Positions 28,165 through 53,623 of a stretch of 64,000 bases of DNA are shown piece by piece. A model generated the notes under the pieces. It was not told where the DNA came from, made no database searches, and saw nothing but the letters and a program-made list of their open reading frames with translations. Origin of the DNA: Methanosaeta sp. PtaU1.Bin112 (GTDB lineage Archaea; Halobacteriota; Methanosarcinia; Methanotrichales; Methanotrichaceae); NCBI GenBank assembly GCA_002067705.1, contig MVRL01000193.1, positions 1 through 64,000 on the forward strand. Reading direction: 5' to 3'. Made by a program: the position numbers and the translations under genes. Within the stretch, counting starts at the first letter, position 1. Every line of letters starts with the position of its first letter.

Positions 28165-28807
28165 TTATTTGCCTTCCACCTCATTGAGGTATACAACCAC
28201 CGCCTGCGTCACCTCCGCCGTCCCACAGCTCCCGCCCAGGTCCGGCGTCTTCGCCCCGCTGGCCAGCGCCTTCTGCACCGCCGCCTCGATTCGGTCTGCT
28301 TTCTCTGGCTCGCCCAGCCAGCGCATCATCATCGCTGCACTCCGGATGGATGGATTCGAAGAGCGCGTGGTCGGTGCCGATGTTGGCGCTGGCGCACAGG
28401 CCCAGGCTGCCGATCACTCCTGCCGCCTCATCGCTCAGGATGTCGCCGAAGAGGTTGGTTGTGACCAGCACATCAAACCTGCCGGGATTGGTCACAAGAT
28501 TGTAGGCGGCGACCAGCATCTCATCGCAGGGCACGGCCCGCCTTGCCGCTACCTCCTGGCAGGTCTTCAGAAAGATCCAGTCGCCCTTCAGCACATTGGA
28601 CATGTGGGCGATGATCAGCGTTCTTCGGCCTGCTGCCAGATCGCAGGCCATCTCTGCAATCCTCTCGCTGCCCAGGCGAGTCATGACTCGCATGGTATGT
28701 GCCTGCTCCGCATCCATCACATCTTGGCCTGAGTGGAGACCTTCCGTGTTCTCCCGCGCAACGACAAAATCGAGGCTTTGAGACTGAAAAGGCCAGTCCT
28801 CTTCCAT
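28165..28807 (-). pseudogene. Truncated isocitrate/3-isopropylmalate dehydrogenase-family gene
   Basis: The first ~100 codons are missing: recognisable sequence begins at D-F-V-V-A-R-E-N-T-E-G-L (about 28774) and continues with the family motifs R-x-x-T-R-L-G-S-E-R-I-A, N-V-L-K-G-D, V-T-T-N-L-F-G-D-I-L-S-D-E-A-A and A-N-I-G-T-D-H-A-L-F-E-S-I-H. There a deletion of about 20-25 codons joins, out of frame, to M-M-M-R-W-L-G-E-P-E-K-A-D and the normal C-terminus ending at TAA 28165. The parent could be leuB, aksF or a homoisocitrate dehydrogenase. Both the 5' truncation and the frame-breaking deletion mark it as nonfunctional. Confidence 0.85.
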
Positions 28808-30313: not shown

Positions 30314-32069
<1,756 letters not shown>

Positions 32070-32073
<4 letters not shown>

Positions 32074-32402
32074 ACCTAGAGATGATGCAATTAATGGACG
32101 AACATCATAAGAGCTTTGAAGATGAAATCGCAGCAAAAGAAGCGCGCAAGATCAAAGCCATCCGCAGGAGAGACAAAGGCATATGGTTTGGTCTGGGCAT
32201 GATGGGCGTTATCGGATGGTCTGTAGCAGTACCAACTCTTGTTGGCGTCCTTTTAGGTGTTTGGATAGACCTAAATTATGATGGAATCATATCCTGGACG
32301 CTTACTTTATTATTCCTGGGTCTGGCTGTGGGCTGCGCAAATGCCTGGTATTGGGTGAAAAAAGGACAGAGAGAGATTGGAGAGGACATCATTGATGAGT
32401 AG
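32070..32402 (+). CDS. atpQ: N-ATPase accessory membrane protein AtpQ
   Basis: 110 residues with a charged N-terminal helix (E-A-R-K-I-K-A-I-R-R-R-D-K) and two transmembrane helices (~48-70 and ~76-97), the second containing G-V-W-I-D-L. AtpQ is AtpI-like and is specific to N-ATPase operons. It may help c-ring assembly or Mg/Ca uptake. It overlaps atpC by 4 nt and atpR by 8 nt. Confidence 0.85.
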
Positions 32403-32703
32403 CTTAATTTTGCCTGCGGTAAGCTTTTTCATGGGCGTCTTCCTGGGAGCTTTCTACTTTGGAGGATTGTGGCTGACAATTAAACGCCTGCCTGGCTGCC
32501 AACAGCCTACGTTATTGAGCCTAGGAAGCTTCTTTGCCAGATCCTTGGTTTGCATCCTCGGATTCTATGTAATTATCGGCAGCGGCATGCAATCGTTATT
32601 GCTCTGTCTGGCAGGCTTTGTTCTGACTAAGATCGCATTGATTCGCAGGCTATCTCTAGAGCCGAGAATGGAGGCGTGCGGAAATGGTCCAGATAAATCC
32701 TGA
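32395..32703 (+). CDS. atpR: N-ATPase accessory membrane protein AtpR
   Basis: 102 residues from ATG 32395 (the ATGAGTAG overlap with atpQ); three predicted membrane helices (~4-28, ~42-60, ~62-80). It has the AtpR-type positively charged residue after G-G-L-W-L-T-I-K-R. AtpR is unique to N-ATPases and is proposed to assist the c-ring, perhaps by contacting its carboxylates. Ends 20 nt inside atpB. Confidence 0.85.
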   Translation: MSSLILPAVSFFMGVFLGAFYFGGLWLTIKRLPGCQQPTLLSLGSFFARSLVCILGFYVIIGSGMQSLLLCLAGFVLTKIALIRRLSLEPRMEACGNGPDKS

Positions 32704-33397
32704 TGAAGTTATTTATTGGAGCTTGGGAGAGACCTTCTCAATTAATGAAACGATAGTCAACACCTGGATAGTGATGGCGCTTCTGATACTTCTCACCTGG
32801 ATTTCAACACGCCATCTCTCTATTGACCCGCCGCTCTCACATATGCAGGTCTTCATGGAGACCATAGTCAGTTTCATGAAAAGCGAGATTGAGGAAATTT
32901 CCCGCAAATCTCCGGAACGATACATCCACTTTTCCGGAACTCTGTTTTTATTCATCTCCGTGGCCAGTCTGCTTTCTATTGTTCCTGGATATCGTTCTCC
33001 TGCCAGCTCCCTCTCAACAACCCTGGCAATGGCGATATGCGTCTTTTTTGCCGTTCCCATCTATGGCATTGCCGAGAGAGGAGCATCTGATTATTTCGCT
33101 CGCTACGTCCAGCCGTCTATCATTATGCTTCCTTTCAATATCATCGGAGAAGTCTCTCGGACTATGGCACTAGCCCTAAGGCTTTTTGGCAATATGATGA
33201 GTCAGAATTTGCTGGTTGCAGTACTGCTTTCCATCGTGCCCCTATTCTTGCCCTCGGTCATGGACCTTTTTGGTTTGTTGATCGGACAGGTACAGGCTTA
33301 CATATTTTCAGTCCTGGCCACAGTCTATATAATATCTGGGAGTTTTGCGGATGAAGACCAAAAGGAGAAATTGTCGCCAAGAGGTGTTCGAGAATGA
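32684..33397 (+). CDS. atpB: N-ATPase Fo subunit a
   Basis: 237 residues, five to six membrane helices. The stator arginine is in the motif M-A-L-A-L-R-L-F-G-N-M-M (residues ~165-176), and the following helix contains G-L-L-I-G-Q-V-Q-A-Y-I-F. It forms the ion half-channels against the c-ring. Overlaps atpR by 20 nt; the next gene atpE starts at its stop codon (ATGA overlap). Confidence 0.95.
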   Translation: MVQINPDEVIYWSLGETFSINETIVNTWIVMALLILLTWISTRHLSIDPPLSHMQVFMETIVSFMKSEIEEISRKSPERYIHFSGTLFLFISVASLLSIVPGYRSPASSLSTTLAMAICVFFAVPIYGIAERGASDYFARYVQPSIIMLPFNIIGEVSRTMALALRLFGNMMSQNLLVAVLLSIVPLFLPSVMDLFGLLIGQVQAYIFSVLATVYIISGSFADEDQKEKLSPRGVRE

Positions 33398-33660
33398 CTG
33401 CTATTGAGACGATAGGTGTTGCATCGATTATTGTCTCAGGACTTACCATTGCTATTGGTTCAATTGGGCCGGCGATAGGCGAAGCTTGGGCACTCTCCCG
33501 GGCACTAAACGCCATTGCACAGCAGCCCGATGAGGCCAATACTATCACAAGGACACTATTTGTAGGCCTCGCCATGGTGGAATCAACTGCGATTTACTGT
33601 TTTGTCATATCAATAATTCTGATATTCTCTAATCCATTCTGGAATTATGTAACTCGTTAG
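33394..33660 (+). CDS. atpE: N-ATPase Fo subunit c
   Basis: 88-residue hairpin of two membrane helices. Helix 1 has the glycine repeat G-S-I-G-P-A-I-G-E with Glu30; helix 2 has V62-E63-S64-T65-x-x-Y68. E63, S64, T65 and Y68 correspond to the Na+ ligands E65, S66, T67 and Y70 of Ilyobacter tartaricus, and Glu30 takes the place of its Gln32. So the site has Na+-type ligands but two carboxylates, a feature reported for N-type c subunits. Whether it moves Na+ or H+ cannot be settled from sequence. Confidence 0.95.
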   Translation: MTAIETIGVASIIVSGLTIAIGSIGPAIGEAWALSRALNAIAQQPDEANTITRTLFVGLAMVESTAIYCFVISIILIFSNPFWNYVTR

Positions 33661-33669
33661 GAGGATGTC

Positions 33670-34434
33670 TTGCAGATTGATTATTTTACAACCGTCGCCC
33701 AAATCATCAATTTTGCACTGCTAGTGCTCATCCTGAAGCACTTCTTTTACAGCCCGCTGCTAAAATTGATGGATGAAAGAGAGATGAAGATAATCTCCCG
33801 CCAAAATGAGGCAGAAGATGCCAAGAGAGAAGCGATGAGGGAGGCTCAGTCATATCAAAAGAAGAGAGAAGAGCTATCATCCGAGCATGAAGAGCTTCTT
33901 GTCAAAGCAAAAGAGGATGCAAGAGAATTTAAAGAAGATATGATGAAAAAAGCAATAGAAGAGATTGAAGAGATGAAGATAGAGTGGCAAAAGGATTTGC
34001 TGCGCCAGAGATCTGATTTTGTTGCCGATTTGAAAAAATATAGTGGACTGCAGCTTTATGCCATCACCAGAAGGGCTTTGCGGGACCTCGCCAACGAAGA
34101 TCTGGAGCGACAGATAATAATTACCTTTGTCAATCGACTAAAAAATTTAGAGGATTCTGAAAGAGAGTCAATTGAGAGTTTCTTTAGAGATCCCAAGCAG
34201 ATAATTACAATACGCAGCGCCTTTGATATTCCCGAAGAGACTCAAAGAGAGATTAAGCGAGAACTTGCAGCTTATGCCGACGCGGATGTGAGGGTTCAAT
34301 TCGTTATAGACGATGATTTGATCTCAGGAATGGTAATGAGCGCGAAGAATGCAGAAATTGGGTGGAGCGTCTCCGGATATCTTGATTCGCTTGAAGCAGA
34401 TTTTTCCCACTGGCTTGAGAAGAGAGCATTGTAA
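33670..34434 (+). CDS. atpF: N-ATPase subunit b fused to a delta-like C-terminal domain
   Basis: 254 residues, far longer than a normal ~160-residue b subunit. Residues ~5-25 are the membrane helix; ~30-130 is a charged coiled coil. The C-terminal ~100 residues resemble the delta subunit C-terminus: V-Q-F-V-I-D-D-D-L-I-S-G-M-V followed by I-G-W-S-V-S-G-Y-L-D-S-L matches the delta pattern D-x-x-L-I-G-G ... D-x-S-V-x-G-x-L. The operon has no atpH, so this fusion probably replaces delta. TTG start with GAGGATG five bases... close upstream. Confidence 0.88.
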   Translation: MQIDYFTTVAQIINFALLVLILKHFFYSPLLKLMDEREMKIISRQNEAEDAKREAMREAQSYQKKREELSSEHEELLVKAKEDAREFKEDMMKKAIEEIEEMKIEWQKDLLRQRSDFVADLKKYSGLQLYAITRRALRDLANEDLERQIIITFVNRLKNLEDSERESIESFFRDPKQIITIRSAFDIPEETQREIKRELAAYADADVRVQFVIDDDLISGMVMSAKNAEIGWSVSGYLDSLEADFSHWLEKRAL

Positions 34435-34489
34435 CAGCATAAATTGAAGCAGCATAAATTGTAACAGCATAATGATTGCAGCAGCATAA
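34435..34489 (+). repeat. Four short CAGCATAA direct repeats between atpF and atpA
   Basis: CAGCATAA occurs at 34435, 34450, 34465 and 34482, spaced 15, 15 and 17 nt; the first three lie in a nearly perfect 15-bp tandem repeat. They fill the only real gap of the operon. Confidence 0.8.
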
Positions 34490-34499
34490 GGGCAGTGAT

Positions 34500-36011
34500 A
34501 TGATAAGAGATGAATCCGGAGTCAGAGGGGTTCTGGCCGACACTTTTGCGGCAATTGAGCAAGATCTTGCAGTCTACAGGCCAAAGCTGAAGATTGAAGA
34601 GATTGGCGTAGTCTCATTTGTAGGCAAAGGCATCGTTCGCATAAAAGGACTGCCCAATGCCAAATCAGAGGAACTGATACGATTTTCCGGAGACAATTAT
34701 GGCATAGTCTTCAACCTTGATCCAGAAGAGGTTGCCGTTATAATGCTCAGTGAGAATAAAAGCATCAAAGCCAAACAGATCGCACACAGAACAGGAAGAA
34801 TTATGGAAGTTCCCGTGGGCGAAGAGCTCTTGGGAAGAATCATCGACGGCATGGGTCGGCCACTGGACGATGGGGGAAGCATCCAGACCTCACAAAAAAT
34901 GCCCATCGAGAAGGAGGCTCCTGCGATAATGGAGCGAGCGGCAGTTAATGCTCCGCTGCAGACAGGAATCATGGTAGTAGACAGCATGATTCCCATAGGT
35001 CGCGGACAGCGCGAGCTGATACTGGGTGACAAGCAAACCGGCAAGACGGCTTTGGCCATTGATACTATTATTAATCAAAAAGACAAGGATGTAATCTGCA
35101 TCTATTGCTCTATTGGGCAGGAAAAATCAGAAGTATCCCATATCGCTGCACAGCTTCGCGATAATGATGCCTTGGAAAATTGCATAATAGTCGCAGCTAC
35201 TGGAGAAGACACGCCTGCCTTAAATTTTATTGCCCCATATTCCGCGACCACTATAGGAGAATTCTTTGTCGAGAAAGGGCAGGATGTCTTGGTCGTCTAC
35301 GATGATTTGACCCGGCATGCTCGAGCCTATCGTGAGCTGTCGCTGCTATTGCGCCGTCCCCCGGGAAGAGAAGCTTTTCCAGGCGACATATTCTATGTTC
35401 ATTCCAGGCTATTGGAAAGGGCAACACGTTATCGCCATGGCGGATCTCTCACTGCATTGCCCATCATTGAGACAGAAGCCCAGGACATTTCCGCTTATAT
35501 ACCGACCAATCTCATATCCATTACAGACGGCCAGATTTACCTCTCACCAGAGCTTTTCAGAAAAGGAATTTTGCCGGCAATTGATGTGGGCCTGTCGGTA
35601 TCCCGTGTTGGTGGCAAAAGCCAGCTGCCTGCCTTCGCTGAGGTTTCCGGTGCTTTGCGCCTCACATATTCGCAATTTCAGAGTCTTGAGATCTACACCA
35701 GGTTTGGCACCAGGCTTGATCCAAAGACTCAAGAGATCCTGCAGCGCGGCCAGCGAATACGCGAGATCTTGAAACAATCGCAATTTGATCCTATGTCCGC
35801 CCCGGTGCAGGTTGCAATCCTACTGGCGGTAACGGAAGGAGTACTTGACAAGCATCATTTGAATGAGGTGGCATCTGCTAAGGTCGAGTTAGCAAAAGCG
35901 TTTTGCGAGAGATTGCCGCACTTAAATGATTTGATTGCATCAGGGCAAAAGCTGAGCCACCAGGATCGCGAATTAATATTAAAGACATTTGCAGAAGTAC
36001 TTCAGAAATAG
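34500..36011 (+). CDS. atpA: N-ATPase F1 subunit alpha
   Basis: 503 residues from ATG 34500; an in-frame TTG at 34476 lies within the short repeats and would add eight residues. Walker A G-D-K-Q-T-G-K-T-A (residues ~170), the alpha-specific Gln in place of catalytic Glu (C-S-I-G-Q-E-K-S), Walker B V-L-V-V-Y-D-D-L-T-R and the arginine-finger region I-S-V/L-S-R-V-G-G (L-S-V-S-R-V-G-G). A normal bacterial-type alpha subunit. atpG follows after 8 nt. Confidence 0.95.
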   Translation: MIRDESGVRGVLADTFAAIEQDLAVYRPKLKIEEIGVVSFVGKGIVRIKGLPNAKSEELIRFSGDNYGIVFNLDPEEVAVIMLSENKSIKAKQIAHRTGRIMEVPVGEELLGRIIDGMGRPLDDGGSIQTSQKMPIEKEAPAIMERAAVNAPLQTGIMVVDSMIPIGRGQRELILGDKQTGKTALAIDTIINQKDKDVICIYCSIGQEKSEVSHIAAQLRDNDALENCIIVAATGEDTPALNFIAPYSATTIGEFFVEKGQDVLVVYDDLTRHARAYRELSLLLRRPPGREAFPGDIFYVHSRLLERATRYRHGGSLTALPIIETEAQDISAYIPTNLISITDGQIYLSPELFRKGILPAIDVGLSVSRVGGKSQLPAFAEVSGALRLTYSQFQSLEIYTRFGTRLDPKTQEILQRGQRIREILKQSQFDPMSAPVQVAILLAVTEGVLDKHHLNEVASAKVELAKAFCERLPHLNDLIASGQKLSHQDRELILKTFAEVLQK

Positions 36012-36019
36012 GCGGCAAT

Positions 36020-36916
36020 ATGGTTGAGCTTGAAAGAACAAGTAGACGGATTAGAAATACTATAGAACTGCAATCCGTAGTCAAGATCATGAAGGCCATT
36101 TCTTCAGCAAATATTCGAGAGTATGAAACGTCTGTACGATCCCTCGCTGAATACAATAAAACTATAGAATTCGGCCTGCAAATTATGCTGCAAAATAATA
36201 ATAGACTGATGACAGCCAAGAAAGCAGAAGAAAAAGGAAGCCTGGGTGCAATAGTCTTCGGCTCGGAGCAGGGGCTATGCGGCAATTTCAATGACATAAT
36301 TGCCAGATATGCATTAGAACGAATTGCAGAGATGAATCATGATGAACGGAGGATTCTGGCGGTAGGAAGTCGCGTTCTTGCCCGTCTCGAAGACGCAGGT
36401 CAGCCCGTCGAGATTTGCTTTTCTTTTTCAGGGGACTTTTTGGGCATAACTGATGTTATGGGAAAAGTGCTTGACAGAATTGATGAGTGGCGCCTGGAAA
36501 ACAATGCCGCACAAATTGTCCTCTTTTACAATCGTCCCACTGCAGCCACCGCAAGAGCATTCAGTCCCAAAATGGCCCGAATATTCCCCATCGACCCTGT
36601 CTGGTTTGCGAGCCTTGGGAAAAGAGAATGGCATAGCCATTGTCTGCCAACTTATTCCATGAACAAAGAGATGCTCTTCACTGCCCTGATTCGCGAGCAT
36701 CTGTTTTTCTCCCTTTATCGCGCATTCGTAGAATCGCTTGCCAGCGAGAATTCCAGCAGGCTCGTATCCATGCAGGCTGCAGAGAAAAATATAGAGGAAC
36801 ACCTCACTGAGCTCTTAGCCCATTACCGAAAGCAGCGTCAAGAGGCCATCTCTTCAGAACTGCTTGACATCTTGACGGGATATGAAGCGCTAGAGCGTTG
36901 GCCCCCTAGTGACTAG
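36020..36916 (+). CDS. atpG: N-ATPase F1 subunit gamma
   Basis: 298 residues. N-terminal helix T-R-R-I-R-N-T-I-E-L-Q-S-V-V-K-I-M-K-A-I-S-S (read with breaks) is the gamma signature; G-S-E-Q-G-L-C-G-N-F-N is the conserved core strand; the C-terminal helix has S-R-L-V-S-M-Q-A-A-E-K-N-I. The central stalk subunit that couples rotation. Last gene of the operon; its stop overlaps the convergent hsp20 stop by 4 nt. Confidence 0.93.
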   Translation: MVELERTSRRIRNTIELQSVVKIMKAISSANIREYETSVRSLAEYNKTIEFGLQIMLQNNNRLMTAKKAEEKGSLGAIVFGSEQGLCGNFNDIIARYALERIAEMNHDERRILAVGSRVLARLEDAGQPVEICFSFSGDFLGITDVMGKVLDRIDEWRLENNAAQIVLFYNRPTAATARAFSPKMARIFPIDPVWFASLGKREWHSHCLPTYSMNKEMLFTALIREHLFFSLYRAFVESLASENSSRLVSMQAAEKNIEEHLTELLAHYRKQRQEAISSELLDILTGYEALERWPPSD

Positions 36917-47954: not shown

Positions 47955-48983
47955 ATGGCAAAGATCAAAGCTGGCGTCTTGGGTGCCACCGGTGCCGTGG
48001 GGCAGCGCTTCATTGAAGGACTGAAGAACCATCCCTGGTTTGAGCTGACCAGCCTTGCCGCTTCGGAAAGAAGCGCGGGCAAGAAGTACAAGGAAGCTGC
48101 AAAGTGGCGCCTGGAGAGCGAGCTTCCCGACGATATCGCGGAGATGACTGTGGTCAACGTCGATCCGCGAGAGGTAGATGCGGATATTGTCTTTTCCGCG
48201 CTTCCCGCCTCTGATGCCCTTACGGTTGAGCCCGCCTTCGCCGCTGCAGGTTGCGCCGTGGCCAGCAACACCAGCTCATACCGAATGGTGGAAGATGTGC
48301 CTCTGCTTATACCGGAGTGCAATCATGAACACCTGGATATCATCAAGGTTCAGCGCGAGAAGCGGGGATGGGATGGATACCTTACCACAAATCCCAACTG
48401 CACGACGGTCATGTTCACATTGCCACTCAAGCCGCTCATGAAGTTCGGCATAGAGACGGTTCATGTGGCCTCCATGCAGGCAGTCTCTGGAGCAGGATAT
48501 GAGGGCGTGCCATCCATGGCCATCCTGGGCAACGTCATTCCCTACATCGGCGGAGAGGAGGAGAAGGTGGAGACTGAGCCGCAGAAGATCCTGGGGCACT
48601 TTGATGGCGAGAAAATAGTGAATGCAGAATTCAGCGTGAGCGCCAGCTGCCACCGCGTACCGGTCATGGACGGACACACGGAAGCCATCTGGGTGACCAT
48701 GAGGGACAACCCCACGCCAGAGGAGGTCAAAAAAGCCATGCAGAACTTCGATGCAGGTCTGGCAGACCTGCCAACCTCGCCCAAGAAAGCGATCATCGTC
48801 AAAGATGAGCCTGATCGGCCTCAGCCAAGGCTCGATCGCGGCCGCGGAAACGGCATGGCGGTCTCTGTAGGACGGATCAGATCGGGAATCAGGTTCGTCT
48901 GCATGGGTCACAACACCGTGCGCGGTGCAGCGGGAGCCAGCATTCTCAATGCCGAACTGCTGGTGAAGAAAGGCCTGCTGTGA
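47955..48983 (+). CDS. asd: Aspartate-semialdehyde dehydrogenase
   Basis: 342 residues from ATG 47955 (AGGTGA six bases upstream). N-terminal NADP motif [13 protein letters not shown], catalytic Cys in T-N-P-N-C-T-T, and [13 protein letters not shown]. Belongs to the archaeal/fungal-type ASADH. Feeds threonine, methionine and lysine synthesis; lysA is also in this window (61632). The next gene starts at its stop codon (4-nt overlap). Confidence 0.94.
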
Positions 48984-49945
48984 TGCTGATCATTGCCTGG
49001 GAGGTGACGGCAGCCTGCAACCTGTCTTGCGGCTACTGCCGAGCCTCCGCTTCCCATCTTCCGGATGCCGATGAGCTGTCCACCCAGGAGGCTTTCTCTT
49101 TTTTGGATAGCGTTGCTCCCCTGAAGCCCATGCTGATTTTAAGTGGCGGCGAGCCCTTGCTGCGGCCTGACATCTTCCGGATAGCGCGCCATGCAAAGGA
49201 GTTGGGGATGCGTGTCTCCCTGGCCAGCAATGGAACCACAATCACTCCACTGCTGGCAGATGAAATTGCTGCCAGCGGCATCTCGCGAGTCAGCATCAGC
49301 CTGGATGGCGCTTCGCCCGAAAGGCATGATGCCTCCCGCGGAAAGGGAAGCTTTAAGGCGGCTATGCGGGGAATAGAGAATCTGCGCGGCAAGGTCGACT
49401 TTCAGATCAATAACACTCTCACCAACAAAAATGAGGCCGATGTAGCTGACGTCTTCGATCTGGCCCAGAGGGTGGGAGCCTGTGCTCTGCACTTCTTTTT
49501 CCTGGTGGCCACCGGTCGGGGAAGGGAAGCTGCCCTAATATCTCCGGAGCGGCAGGAGCAGCTTCTGCGGGAGATCGATAAGATGCGAGCGATTTGGCCC
49601 CTGGAGGTCCAGGTCACCTGTGCGCCTCAGTATGCTCGCATAAAAAGGCCAGAAAGAGGCCGAGCAGGGGGCTGCCTGGCAGGCAAAAGCTTCGTTTTTG
49701 TCTCCCGAAAGGGCGATGTCTATCCCTGCGGATATCTTCCTCTGCAAGTTGGAAACATCCGGGAGAAGAATTTTATAGAGATATGGGAGAATGCTCCTGA
49801 GCTGATGGCACTGAGAGAGAGAAGACTCAAAGGCAAATGTGGTAGATGCAGCTATTCCTCCACCTGCGGAGGGTGCCGGGCGCGGGCCTACGCAAATACG
49901 GGTGATTTCCTGGATCAAGATCCTGCCTGCTTCATGGAAGTGTAG
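48980..49945 (+). CDS. Radical SAM protein of the alternative heme pathway (AhbC/AhbD type)
   Basis: 321 residues. The SAM cluster motif C-N-L-S-C-G-Y-C is at residues ~13-20, with S-G-G-E-P-L-L and S-I-S-L-D-G. The C-terminal part has Cys residues for auxiliary clusters: [26 protein letters not shown] and a final D-P-A-C. The next gene is AhbB, so this is AhbC (12,18-didecarboxysiroheme to Fe-coproporphyrin) or AhbD (to heme); sequence alone does not separate them for me. Overlaps asd by 4 nt. Confidence 0.82.
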
Positions 49946-49947
49946 AC

Positions 49948-50397
49948 GTGGATGAGATCGACTTAGAGCTGCTCTCGGCCGTGCAGGACGGTTTTCCCAT
50001 AACGCCAAGGCCGTTCCGGGATTTGGGAGCGGCCTTGGGCCTCGATGAAGATGAGGTAATGCTGCGTATGGCCGGCCTGCAGAAGGAAGGGCTGGTTCGC
50101 AGGATCGGGCCGATTCTCGATCTGCGCAAATTGGGCCGCAGCGGAATGCTGGCCGCTCTGAAGGTATCACGAACGGAGGCTGACCGCGCCGCCCAGATCA
50201 TTAATGGGTATCCTGAGGTTTCGCATAACTACCTGCGGCCCGATGAGAGCGGCTACAACCTCTGGTTTACCGTTTCCGCTTCCGAAGTGAGGATCCAGGA
50301 GATATTGCAGGAGATCAGGGCGAAGACCGGTCTGAAGATGCTGGTGCTGCCCACTCTGCGCATCTTCAAGATCGGCGTCAAATTCGACATAATTTGA
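49948..50397 (+). CDS. ahbB: Siroheme decarboxylase subunit (AhbB-type)
   Basis: 149 residues of the Lrp/AsnC-like fold: N-terminal HTH-like region (D-L-E-L-L-S-A-V-Q-D-G-F-P at 5-17), then R-I-G-P-I-L-D and a ferredoxin-like domain with P-E-V-S-H-N-Y-L-R and Y-N-L-W-F-T, whose His/Tyr pattern is typical of AhbA/AhbB siroheme decarboxylase. GTG start 2 nt after the radical SAM gene. AhbA is not adjacent. It decarboxylates siroheme at C12 and C18. Confidence 0.82.
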   Translation: MDEIDLELLSAVQDGFPITPRPFRDLGAALGLDEDEVMLRMAGLQKEGLVRRIGPILDLRKLGRSGMLAALKVSRTEADRAAQIINGYPEVSHNYLRPDESGYNLWFTVSASEVRIQEILQEIRAKTGLKMLVLPTLRIFKIGVKFDII

Positions 50398-50488: not shown

Positions 50489-50761
50489 ACGGCTAAACCG
50501 ATTCTGATGGACTTTTATGCTGACTGGTGCGGACCATGCAGGCTGCAGGCCCCCATCTTCGAGGAACTGGCCAGAGACCACGGCGATAAGGCAGAGTTTA
50601 AGGAGATCAATGTGGACAAAGAGGGTGACCTGGCGATTGAGAAGGGCATCATGGTCGTTCCCACCATCATTTTGGAGAAAGACGGCAAGGAAATACAGAG
50701 GTGGATGGGCGTCACTGCCAAGGAAGAGCTGATCAAAGCCATCAACAAGGCCCAGGATTGA
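50489..50761 (+). CDS. Thioredoxin-like protein, apparent ACG (or late ATG) start
   Basis: A short thioredoxin with W-C-G-P-C-R active site and the cis-Pro in M-V-V-P-T-I-I. ATG 50507 gives M-D-F-Y-A-D-W-C, which would cut off the first beta strand. Upstream in-frame codons ACG-GCT-AAA-CCG-ATT-CTG would supply the usual (M)-T-A-K-P-I-L. There is no ATG, GTG or TTG between the in-frame stop at 50468 and 50507. AAGGAG (50473-50478) is 10 nt before ACG 50489 but 28 nt before ATG 50507. I therefore mark ACG as the likely start, about 90 residues in total. Confidence 0.8.
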   Translation, partial: TAKPILMDFYADWCGPCRLQAPIFEELARDHGDKAEFKEINVDKEGDLAIEKGIMVVPTIILEKDGKEIQRWMGVTAKEELIKAINKAQD

Positions 50762-51771
50762 GTGAGAAGAAGCAGGTAGTGGCGCATAGGAACGGGTGGC
50801 AGAAGCAAATGGCAGATCACGATCTGGAGGCGGTGCGAAGGATCAACAGCCGGGGGGGCATCGCCCCTCATCTCTCCCTGCGCTTTGACTCTCACCTCTT
50901 TTCCATTGATACCAGCCGCGCCCCTAAGGGCAGTTTTCAGCCGAATGCCTATTTTATCACTCACGCCCACAGCGATCATTATGGAAAATCTGCCATGAAC
51001 TCTCCGCAGGCCGTTGCCTCAGTGGAGACGGCACGGGCTCTAGAGATTCGCTATGATCGGGAGTACAAAGGCCGCACCTTCAAAGTGGGGCAGAGCATCG
51101 TCATCGATGATGTAAAAGTGAGCACCCATGCCACAGGCCATACCATTGGCTCGGCTGCGTTCTCCTGGCAGACGGAGGCCGGAGAGAGGGTGCTGGTGAC
51201 CGGAGATGTAAAAGATTACCGGCATCTGCCAAAATGCGATTTTCTCGTCACTGAGGCCAACTACGGGGATCCCTATGATCCGTCCTGCATCTTTGAGGAC
51301 GACCTGGCCGGTTTTTCCGATGCCCTGGAAGACGGGGCGAGCTTTGGAGCCTATGCCTTCGGCAAAGCCCAGAGGGCGGTGGCTCTGATGAGGGCCATGG
51401 GCTACAAAGAAGAGATCGGCATGGATGAGAAGAGCCTGGTCCTGACCCGAGAGCTGATGGGAGACGCTGCCGGGTCGCTCACCGAGGTGCATGGCGGCAT
51501 ATCCAATGTGGTCACTCCCTGGAATCTGCACCAGGTGCACTGCCGCAGCAAGTACTTCCTAACGGGGAGAAGGGACACGTCTTATCCCACCATCCAGCTT
51601 TCCGATCACCTGGATTTTCGCGGATTGATGAGGATGATCGAGCATGTCTCTCCCAGAGAGGTGCTGGTCTACCATCCGGAGGGGATGAGAGCGAGCCTTC
51701 TGGCGCACCACCTGCAGGACTGCGGCCTGGAGACGACATCATTGGACATGATTGATAGGTTCGTGCGATAA
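50758..51771 (+). CDS. Metallo-beta-lactamase fold nuclease-like protein
   Basis: About 337 residues from TTG 50758, which overlaps the thioredoxin stop; ATG 50809 is another candidate. The metal motif T-H-A-H-S-D-H-Y-G, then A-T-G-H-T-I-G-S-A, V-T-G-D-V-K-D-Y and a C-terminal S-D-H-L-D-F and Y-H-P-E-G. This pattern fits the RNA/DNA-processing MBL (mRNA 3'-end processing factor-like / SNM1-like) families rather than glyoxalases, though a full beta-CASP domain is not obvious. Substrate unknown. In a cluster with thioredoxin and a Vms1-like gene, overlapping the latter's longest frame. Confidence 0.72.
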   Translation: MSEKKQVVAHRNGWQKQMADHDLEAVRRINSRGGIAPHLSLRFDSHLFSIDTSRAPKGSFQPNAYFITHAHSDHYGKSAMNSPQAVASVETARALEIRYDREYKGRTFKVGQSIVIDDVKVSTHATGHTIGSAAFSWQTEAGERVLVTGDVKDYRHLPKCDFLVTEANYGDPYDPSCIFEDDLAGFSDALEDGASFGAYAFGKAQRAVALMRAMGYKEEIGMDEKSLVLTRELMGDAAGSLTEVHGGISNVVTPWNLHQVHCRSKYFLTGRRDTSYPTIQLSDHLDFRGLMRMIEHVSPREVLVYHPEGMRASLLAHHLQDCGLETTSLDMIDRFVR

Positions 51772-51790
51772 CCGGTTGGAGGCTAAGCTT

Positions 51791-52753
51791 TTGGTGGACC
51801 TTTTCGGCAAGAAGAAGCTGGAAGATCGCATAGCAGAGCTGCAGGCATCGCTGGCAAAGCTGCAAGGCGAAAAGGAGCAGCTCCTGAGCACCCTGGAGAA
51901 GAGGGACGAGAAGATATCCAAACTCGCCGCTGCCAATCAGCAGGCCAATTTAGCCCTGAAAGCAGCCGAGCAGAGGGCCGCTGCCGCAGCCACGGCTGCC
52001 ACAACCCAGGCCCCAGTGCAGGCTGCGCCGGAGACAGAGGCATGCGAAGGGCAGAAGCCGAAGGCAAGGATCTTGAGCATGCGAGATGTGGATGGGCTAG
52101 TAGAGAGGCTCAAGGTTTGCCGCTCCCCCAGAGACGATCTTGTCGCTGCATACTACACCGGTCCAGCTGCGGAGGATGAGTCACTCTCCCCGGCGATCAG
52201 AAAAGCCACTTGTGCCATCAAGTCTCAGCGGGGGGGAATAGTTCTGCACAGCCCCCAGCTCTTCACCCTGCTGCTAGTGCCGCCTTTTCCCGTCCAGGAG
52301 AGCCTTGTCAGAGAGGGGAGCGCCTTTGCCCTTGATCCGCTGGAGGAGATGATGGAGACGCCCGTGCTCGTCCTCTTCGTTCATGCCGGTGAGACCTTCC
52401 TGGGGGTGGCTTTAAGCCGGGAGAGATTTGAGGTCGAAGAACGGGTGGAAAGCTCGGTAATGGGAAAGCACTCTAAAGGGGGATGGAGCCAGAAGAGGTT
52501 TGAGAGGCTGCGTGAGGAGGAGGTCAGGGGTCATGCCGATCTTGTGGCGGAAAGGCTGGCCGGCCTGATGGGCCGGTACAAGACCCTCCTCAAGTATGCT
52601 GTTGTTTCCGGCGACGAGGGCCTCATTCGCCAGATTGCTCCTGCAATCGGCCTGCCGCTGGTAGAACGGAAACTGTCCCGGCTGGAGGGACGAAAGGCAA
52701 AGGAACTGTTGGATGAGGTTTATGGCTTTTTCTGCTACAGAATTGATGTGTAG
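51791..52753 (+). CDS. Vms1/Ankzf1-like release-factor-fold protein
   Basis: 320 residues from TTG 51791 (GGAGG eight bases upstream). Residues ~5-75 are coiled coil, followed by an Ala/Pro linker. The C-terminal ~220 residues are eRF1 domain 2-like: R-G-G-I-V-L-H-S-P, L-V-L-F-V-H-A-G-E-T-F-L-G-V, then G-K-H-S-K-G-G-W-S-Q-K-R-F-E-R-L-R (read as K-G-G plus S-Q-K-R-F-x-R-L-R-E), the loop occupying the position of the catalytic GGQ. This is the VLRF1 pattern of Vms1, which releases nascent chains from peptidyl-tRNA on stalled 60S subunits. In archaea it is a likely ribosome-rescue factor. Confidence 0.78.
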   Translation: MVDLFGKKKLEDRIAELQASLAKLQGEKEQLLSTLEKRDEKISKLAAANQQANLALKAAEQRAAAAATAATTQAPVQAAPETEACEGQKPKARILSMRDVDGLVERLKVCRSPRDDLVAAYYTGPAAEDESLSPAIRKATCAIKSQRGGIVLHSPQLFTLLLVPPFPVQESLVREGSAFALDPLEEMMETPVLVLFVHAGETFLGVALSRERFEVEERVESSVMGKHSKGGWSQKRFERLREEEVRGHADLVAERLAGLMGRYKTLLKYAVVSGDEGLIRQIAPAIGLPLVERKLSRLEGRKAKELLDEVYGFFCYRIDV

Positions 52754-52777: not shown

Positions 52778-53623
52778 ATGAGCGAGCAGTCCGCGGAAAA
52801 AAAAGAGAAAGAAGAAAACGATCCTGAGGAGCTTGCCCGCGCCTGGGACTGGCATGTGCGAAGAAAGGCCGCCTGGAGCGGAGCGACGCCGGAGAAGGTC
52901 CTGGATCAGCTATCCAGAGACGGGGTGCAATGGGTGAGGGAAGCGGTTGCTGGCAATGCCCGCGCATCAGCGTCATCTCTGGCCCGCCTGGCCGAGGACA
53001 GCTCAGGATATGTACGGGCGGCAGTGGCCTTGAACAGCCGGGTCACAGAGCAGATTTTAGAGATGCTGGCCGCAGACGAGATGGTGGACTACGACAGCAC
53101 TCTTCACAAGAACCGCTATCTTGTGAAGGAGGCGGCGGCAAAGAGCCCCAATATCAACTCCCGGACCCTGGCCTATCTCGCCAGCGATGCCGATGATCAT
53201 GTTCGAGCGGCAGCGGCGAGCAATCCCCTCTTGCCGGCAGAATCGATGAGCAGAATGGTCAAGGACATCTTCTGGGAGGTGCGAAACAACATCGCCAAAA
53301 ACCCATCCACCCCGGAGGATCTGCTCATTTACCTCTCCGCAGACAGGATCATGGATGTGCGGATGACGGCTGCACAGAACCCCCGCACGCCTGCGCAGGC
53401 GCTGGCCGCGCTGTCGTCAGACAGGAGCTGGGAGGTCAGGGAGGCTTTAGCCCGCAATGGCAGCCTCGACGGCCGGATACTGGATGAGCTTGCCGGGCAC
53501 TGGTCCTGGATGGTGCGGGCGGCGGTGGCGGAAAATCCCAACACGCCTGCCGGGACTCTGAAGCGGCTGGCCGGAGACCAGGATCAGAGCGTGCAGAAGG
53601 CGGCGCTGAAGAGATTGGGGTAG
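52778..53623 (+). CDS. LRV/HEAT-like repeat protein
   Basis: 281 residues with an acidic/basic N-terminal tail and about nine ~23-residue helical repeats of the leucine-rich-repeat-variant type: L-x-x-L-A-x-D-x-x-x-x-V-R-x-A-V/A-A-x-N-P-x-T-P. In bacterial LRV proteins the repeats stack into a scaffold, sometimes with a 4Fe-4S cluster; here no N-terminal cysteine cluster is visible. Likely a protein-binding scaffold. Follows the Vms1-like gene by 24 nt in the same direction. Confidence 0.78.
   Translation: MSEQSAEKKEKEENDPEELARAWDWHVRRKAAWSGATPEKVLDQLSRDGVQWVREAVAGNARASASSLARLAEDSSGYVRAAVALNSRVTEQILEMLAADEMVDYDSTLHKNRYLVKEAAAKSPNINSRTLAYLASDADDHVRAAAASNPLLPAESMSRMVKDIFWEVRNNIAKNPSTPEDLLIYLSADRIMDVRMTAAQNPRTPAQALAALSSDRSWEVREALARNGSLDGRILDELAGHWSWMVRAAVAENPNTPAGTLKRLAGDQDQSVQKAALKRLG

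Follow-up and report, generated by a model that had tools for sequence, protein, structure and literature searches.

A gene in the 64,000-nucleotide stretch of contig MVRL01000193.1 analysed here (the window) encodes a protein that sequence comparisons support as a member of the published archaeal VLRF-1 (aVLRF-1) family. We consider it probable, at about 0.65, that aVLRF-1 is a stop-codon-independent release factor, which would hydrolyse peptidyl-tRNA and so rescue ribosomes or large subunits that have stalled. As both the family and the activity predicted for it have been published before, the window gene alone changes little. The additions made here are a corrected register of the catalytic loop, the observation that the NIKS hairpin has been lost and an LRV-repeat gene that is tied to aVLRF-1 in one archaeal family.

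Gene and family assignment

The open reading frame was present as originally predicted, running from a TTG codon to a stop codon (Table 1). TTG 51791 was judged to be the best start because it is preceded by a GGAGG motif and because orthologues share the same start residue; GTG 51794 is a possible alternative and TTG 51752 a less likely one. The host belongs to the Methanotrichaceae, and a contig scan showed relatives at 85–61% identity to be Methanothrix-type genomes. Comparison with three relatives yielded dN/dS values of 0.14–0.20, indicating purifying selection. Together with the invariance of the loop across all 89 distinct orthologues, these values argue against a chance reading.

Table 1 Features of the aVLRF-1 gene and its neighbours (positions refer to the window)
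Feature	Position	Strand	Basis or remark
Metallo-beta-lactamase-fold gene, upstream of aVLRF-1	50701..51771	+	True start probably downstream of 50701
GGAGG ribosome-binding site of the TTG 51791 start	51778..51782	+	Read directly in the sequence, 8 nt before the start
aVLRF-1 gene, 320 aa	51791..52753	+	Open reading frame; TTG start; PF18859 63.1 bits
N-terminal coiled coil, residues 3–70	51797..52000	+	Single predicted helix; coiled-coil profile matches
N-domain, stop-codon-domain remnant	52058..52279	+	aRF1 profile alignment with a 26–28-residue deletion covering NIKS
Catalytic domain, eRF1 domain-2 / VLRF type, RNase H-like fold	52280..52615	+	Profile and structure matches
Catalytic loop K-G-G-W-S-Q, family motif GGxSQ	52475..52492	+	Read in the sequence; GG, S and Q fixed in 89/89
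First residues K-R-F-E-R-L-R-E of the basic helix behind the loop	52493..52516	+	R and F invariant in 89/89
LRV helical-repeat protein, 281 aa, probable operon partner	52778..53623	+	PF01816 116 bits

The aVLRF-1 family was described in 2019 by Burroughs and Aravind as archaeal proteins that carry a coiled coil ahead of the stop-codon-binding domain, have no Pelota domain, contain the motif GGxSQ and are predicted to be peptidyl hydrolases (PMC6514570). Every published structural feature was found in the window protein: the coiled coil, a stop-codon-domain remnant, an eRF1-type catalytic domain, GGxSQ, the lack of a Pelota domain (domain 3) and archaeal origin. Nothing in the protein itself sets it apart from the family. 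The best family match was PF18859 (VLRF1) with 63.1 bits (cut-off 27.1); PF03464 (eRF1_2) gave 31.8 bits and PF18854 (baeRF10) just 27.3 bits. In a tree with two long outgroup branches, 25 aVLRF sequences made up a single clade (100/99 support) that excluded baeRF10 as well as the aRF1s and Pelota encoded in the genome. The original prediction of a Vms1-like release factor is in line with these results. A search of the open-licence literature found no experiments or biochemistry on any archaeal VLRF-1 member.

With the eukaryotic VLRF-1 proteins (eVLRF-1; yeast Vms1, human ANKZF1) the window protein shares the VLRF catalytic domain and a glutamine that lies past the site of GGQ (motif GxxQ, with GGSQ in yeast). 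However, eVLRF-1 has a Rei1-type zinc finger and ankyrin repeats, neither of which was matched in the window protein by Pfam profiles. The latter instead features a coiled coil and GGxSQ rather than GGSQ. The VIM motif, by which eVLRF-1 binds Cdc48/p97, also gave no match to Pfam profiles. According to the published analysis, aVLRF-1 and eVLRF-1 are just distantly related (PMC6514570). For acVLRF-1 of Actinobacteria and Chloroflexi (PF18859, NF041024), GGxSQ is a shared feature (PMC6514570) and the window protein passes the PF18859 cut-off, but NF041024 yielded only 43.1 bits against a cut-off of 125. In addition, acVLRF-1 has no stop-codon domain and its N-terminal extension is short, whereas the window protein has an N-domain remnant and a coiled coil. 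The fold and the loop-helix frame KHxxGG...R[FY]xRL are shared with aRF1/eRF1. These factors possess the catalytic glutamine, NIKS, YxCxxxF and domain 3, while in the window protein tryptophan replaces the glutamine, a glutamine follows two residues later and the other elements are lost.

Domain architecture and catalytic loop

The original prediction that a coiled coil is joined to an eRF1-domain-2/VLRF1-like fold was borne out by the predicted helix, by the PF18859 and PF03464 matches and by the structure matches. In the first full-length model, the coiled coil kept global TM-scores low, and the core was therefore remodelled alone. This core (residues 90–320) consists of two parts and was modelled with confidence (pLDDT 87.7, pTM 0.84), although the catalytic loop is among its least confident parts, with block means of 64–70 pLDDT. 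Residues 71–88 are of low confidence in the model and probably disordered. TM-scores of the core remained modest, since its two domains are oriented unlike those of aRF1.

Comparison with VLRF1 and Vms1 by profile and structure, a check proposed along with the prediction, returned no unrelated best fold; the matches were aRF1/eRF1, Balon, Pelota and Vms1. Within the first 50 hits obtained with the core, yeast Vms1 on the 60S subunit (6R84) gave the best whole-core superposition and the top query TM-score (0.45, 5.0 Å over 203 columns), compared to about 0.39 and 13–16 Å for aRF1/eRF1. By E-value, aRF1/eRF1 and not Vms1 head the same 50 matches. Vms1 was absent from the list of a sequence-only PDB search and was found by the fold search alone.

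The span between the two strands flanking the NIKS region of the N-domain is 25–44 residues long in 23 aVLRF-1 sequences, as opposed to 58 in the two aRF1s of the genome. NIKS is present in both of these aRF1s and absent from the window protein, and YxCxxxF is likewise gone from its N-domain when compared with them. Domain 3 (eRF1_3, the C-terminal Pelota domain) had no match in a Pfam profile search. Judged from the loss of the NIKS hairpin and of the YxCxxxF motif, stop-codon reading by aVLRF-1 is very unlikely. The two aRF1 genes themselves (G000:C127 and G000:C190; L003 and L002) are closely similar and both encode NIKS and GGQ. Either the gene is genuinely duplicated or the bin, for which a contamination of 3.7% is given, contains a second strain.

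The loop K-G-G-W-S-Q and the following K-R-F-E-R-L-R-E are encoded as predicted, and the expected conservation of GG and Q among orthologues holds: H-x-K-G-G-[WFMY]-S-Q-x-R-F is fixed in all 89 distinct sequences. At the classical glutamine position these orthologues have W (63), F (19), M (6) or Y (1), while Q does not occur there. When aligned by HMM to aRF1 and eRF1 of solved structure, the loop shows no gap (KH-xx-GGQ-S-x-x-R-[FY] versus KH-SK-GGW-S-Q-K-R-F), and the window loop GGWSQKRFERLR aligns without gaps with GGQSQRRYERI of 3AGK and GGQSALRFARLR of 3E20. The loop of aVLRF-1 is thus as long as that of aRF1, with tryptophan at the position of the GGQ glutamine and the fixed glutamine two residues downstream. 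The proposed insertion of a residue between GG and SQ, in comparison with GGQ, has to be abandoned, because the loop is in register with aRF1 and W simply replaces Q. In the aRF1 of 3AGK both positions are occupied by glutamine, so that a single loss could give rise to the VLRF loop.

When read from its second glycine, GGWSQ corresponds to G-W-S-Q and hence to the GxuQ/GxxQ motif of Vms1. In yeast Vms1, release is strongly impaired by Q295L and G292A, and deletion of S294, which creates GGQ, abolishes function (PMC5989216). As all three changes damage function, VLRF loops need the spaced glutamine. The arginines of the basic helix behind the loop have been proposed to contact large-subunit rRNA (PMC6514570). 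Catalysis by the shifted glutamine is assumed here, as this residue lies two positions off the GGQ glutamine in the ungapped alignment.

Predicted function and alternative readings

Pelota, ABCE1 and NFACT are known from archaea, whereas we know of no experimentally known step that releases the nascent chain from split, stalled large subunits. aVLRF-1 is a natural candidate for this step. The invariant loop and helix, combined with the loss of the decoding parts, fit best with hydrolysis that is independent of a stop codon. Peptidyl-tRNA hydrolysis is a sound prediction, and from the loss of the decoding elements we infer a specificity for split large subunits, i.e. for 50S rather than 70S. 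aVLRF-1 would enter the A-site region of a stalled ribosome while the peptidyl-tRNA is still in the P site; its likeliest target would be the large subunit left by aPelota/aABCE1 splitting. The basic helix would grip 23S rRNA and the GGxSQ loop would reach the peptidyl-transferase centre, where the shifted glutamine could place a water molecule and thereby hydrolyse the peptidyl-tRNA ester. The coiled coil may recruit or position the protein in place of the decoding domain and a GTPase, a role to which the LRV-repeat protein may also contribute in Methanotrichaceae. If this holds true, aVLRF-1 shows an eRF1-type loop working with its glutamine moved by two residues.

The position of Balon structures among the top fold matches raises the question whether aVLRF-1 is instead a non-catalytic A-site occupier, which protects idle ribosomes in the manner of this bacterial hibernation factor. 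Both proteins belong to the aeRF1 superfamily, as do the baeRF families, and in both NIKS and GGQ are missing; moreover, potential archaeal Balons were reported from Methanosarcinia (PMC13324472). However, Balon is devoid of a GGQ-type glutamine and keeps its EF-Tu-binding domain 3 (PMC10901736), whereas G, G, S and Q are invariant in aVLRF-1 and domain 3 is missing. Such invariance is also at odds with the poor loop conservation of inactive baeRF families (PMC6514570), and the Methanosarcinaceae paralogue that was examined turned out to be a separate baeRF10-type protein. A Balon-like role is regarded as unlikely in view of the glutamine and domain 3 differences. Release of the nascent chain by cutting of the tRNA near its CCA end, in place of ester hydrolysis, has a precedent in human ANKZF1, which cleaves tRNA. 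The eukaryotic VLRF domain has been claimed to act as an RNase (discussed in PMC6514570) and the catalytic fold of aVLRF-1 is RNase H-like, but the acidic residue on strand 1 of the RNase H active site is reported to be missing across the aeRF1 superfamily (PMC6514570). The GGxSQ loop also fits hydrolysis rather than tRNA cutting, which leaves a nuclease mechanism improbable.

Membership in the same superfamily as aRF1 and a partial match to the aRF1 profile TIGR03676 could be taken to indicate an ordinary, stop-codon-dependent class-1 release factor, i.e. a second or third aRF1. This match reached 52.5 bits, far below the cut-off of 234.7. Since NIKS, YxCxxxF and domain 3 are missing, and since the genome encodes two NIKS- and GGQ-bearing aRF1s of its own, ordinary termination is excluded in practice.

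Some Methanosarcinaceae carry an additional three-domain relative of aeRF1 of about 389 aa with cysteine pairs (L114, G022:C1:956500-959500; L115, G252:C129). It matches baeRF family 10 with 79.8 bits and has the loop GGWSQMRF. Absence of GGQ was the criterion by which the 'potential archaeal Balon' proteins were selected (PMC13324472), and this relative may be one of them. Its shifted glutamine suggests that it is possibly an active release factor.

Distribution and gene neighbourhood

The distribution was determined in 295 genomes of the phylum to which the window belongs, with a contig scan providing a wider view. An aVLRF match of at least 72 bits was obtained in 108 of the 295 genomes (counted from the rows of the search). 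Carriers comprise all 11 Methanotrichaceae, most Methanosarcinaceae, part of the other groups and many haloarchaea; further haloarchaeal matches were split into two pieces. The contig scan revealed aVLRF-1 on one Altiarchaeales contig as well. Since the gene is missing from many archaea of this phylum, aVLRF-1 is not a universal rescue step.

Pelota is present in the genome of the window, as is NFACT (NEMF/Rqc2). The expected co-occurrence with NFACT is real but uninformative as support and was dropped, because 283 of the 295 genomes encode NFACT. By the same row count, 106 of the 108 genomes that match aVLRF strongly encode it, as do 177 of the 187 that do not, and the two aVLRF carriers lacking it are incomplete genomes.

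The LRV gene lies on the same strand as aVLRF-1 and begins 24 nt past the stop codon of the latter. The same arrangement was found in 45 Methanotrichaceae loci, some of which are duplicates of one genome, with a spacing that ranges from a slight overlap to about 200 nt. No Methanotrichaceae locus that had room for the LRV gene was without it. In a protein search, each of the 11 Methanotrichaceae genomes had one copy of the LRV protein, and none of the 284 other genomes had any. The protein is thus a candidate for a lineage-specific partner of aVLRF-1. Repeat domains of eukaryotic RQC include the ankyrin repeats fused to Vms1 and the HEAT repeats of Ltn1. We tentatively suggest that aVLRF-1 and the LRV protein form a two-protein machine in Methanotrichaceae, a possible but not favoured arrangement in which the LRV protein would replace such domains as an adaptor to stalled large subunits or the nascent chain. 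If true, this partner offers a concrete handle on recruitment. The adjacency of both genes in Methanotrichaceae is apparently a new finding; no mention of it was found in PMC6514570. At one locus (L036), more LRV-repeat matches follow the first one downstream of aVLRF-1, which looks like a tandem duplication of the partner gene.

Synteny of the upstream genes, including the metallo-beta-lactamase gene, is limited to the nearest Methanothrix and lost beyond close relatives, ruling out this gene as a partner. A neighbourhood common to all aVLRF-1 lineages was not found; instead, the lineages differ. In Methanosarcinaceae (L094, L095, L113), aVLRF-1 is followed in the same direction by DUF7109 and an FtsJ/RlmE-type rRNA methyltransferase with a TRAM domain, and L104 and L110 have an FtsJ/RlmE-type methyltransferase near aVLRF-1 with no DUF7109 detected. 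The Methanomicrobiaceae group (L066, L068, L069, L070, L096, L097) shows the order PUA, SepF, ZPR1, aVLRF-1, with aVLRF-1 as the last gene. Several of the neighbouring genes in these lineages are linked to translation, which weakly supports a ribosomal role of aVLRF-1.

Elsewhere in the window, an isocitrate/isopropylmalate dehydrogenase-like frame (28181-28807, minus strand) has a low-complexity C-terminus, as if frameshifted. Judged from translations alone, genes at 30326-36916 (plus strand) resemble a bacterial F-type (N-ATPase-like) ATP synthase operon. At 48980-50397 (plus strand), a radical SAM gene adjoins a gene of the siroheme decarboxylase AhbA type, which suggests the alternative haem route.
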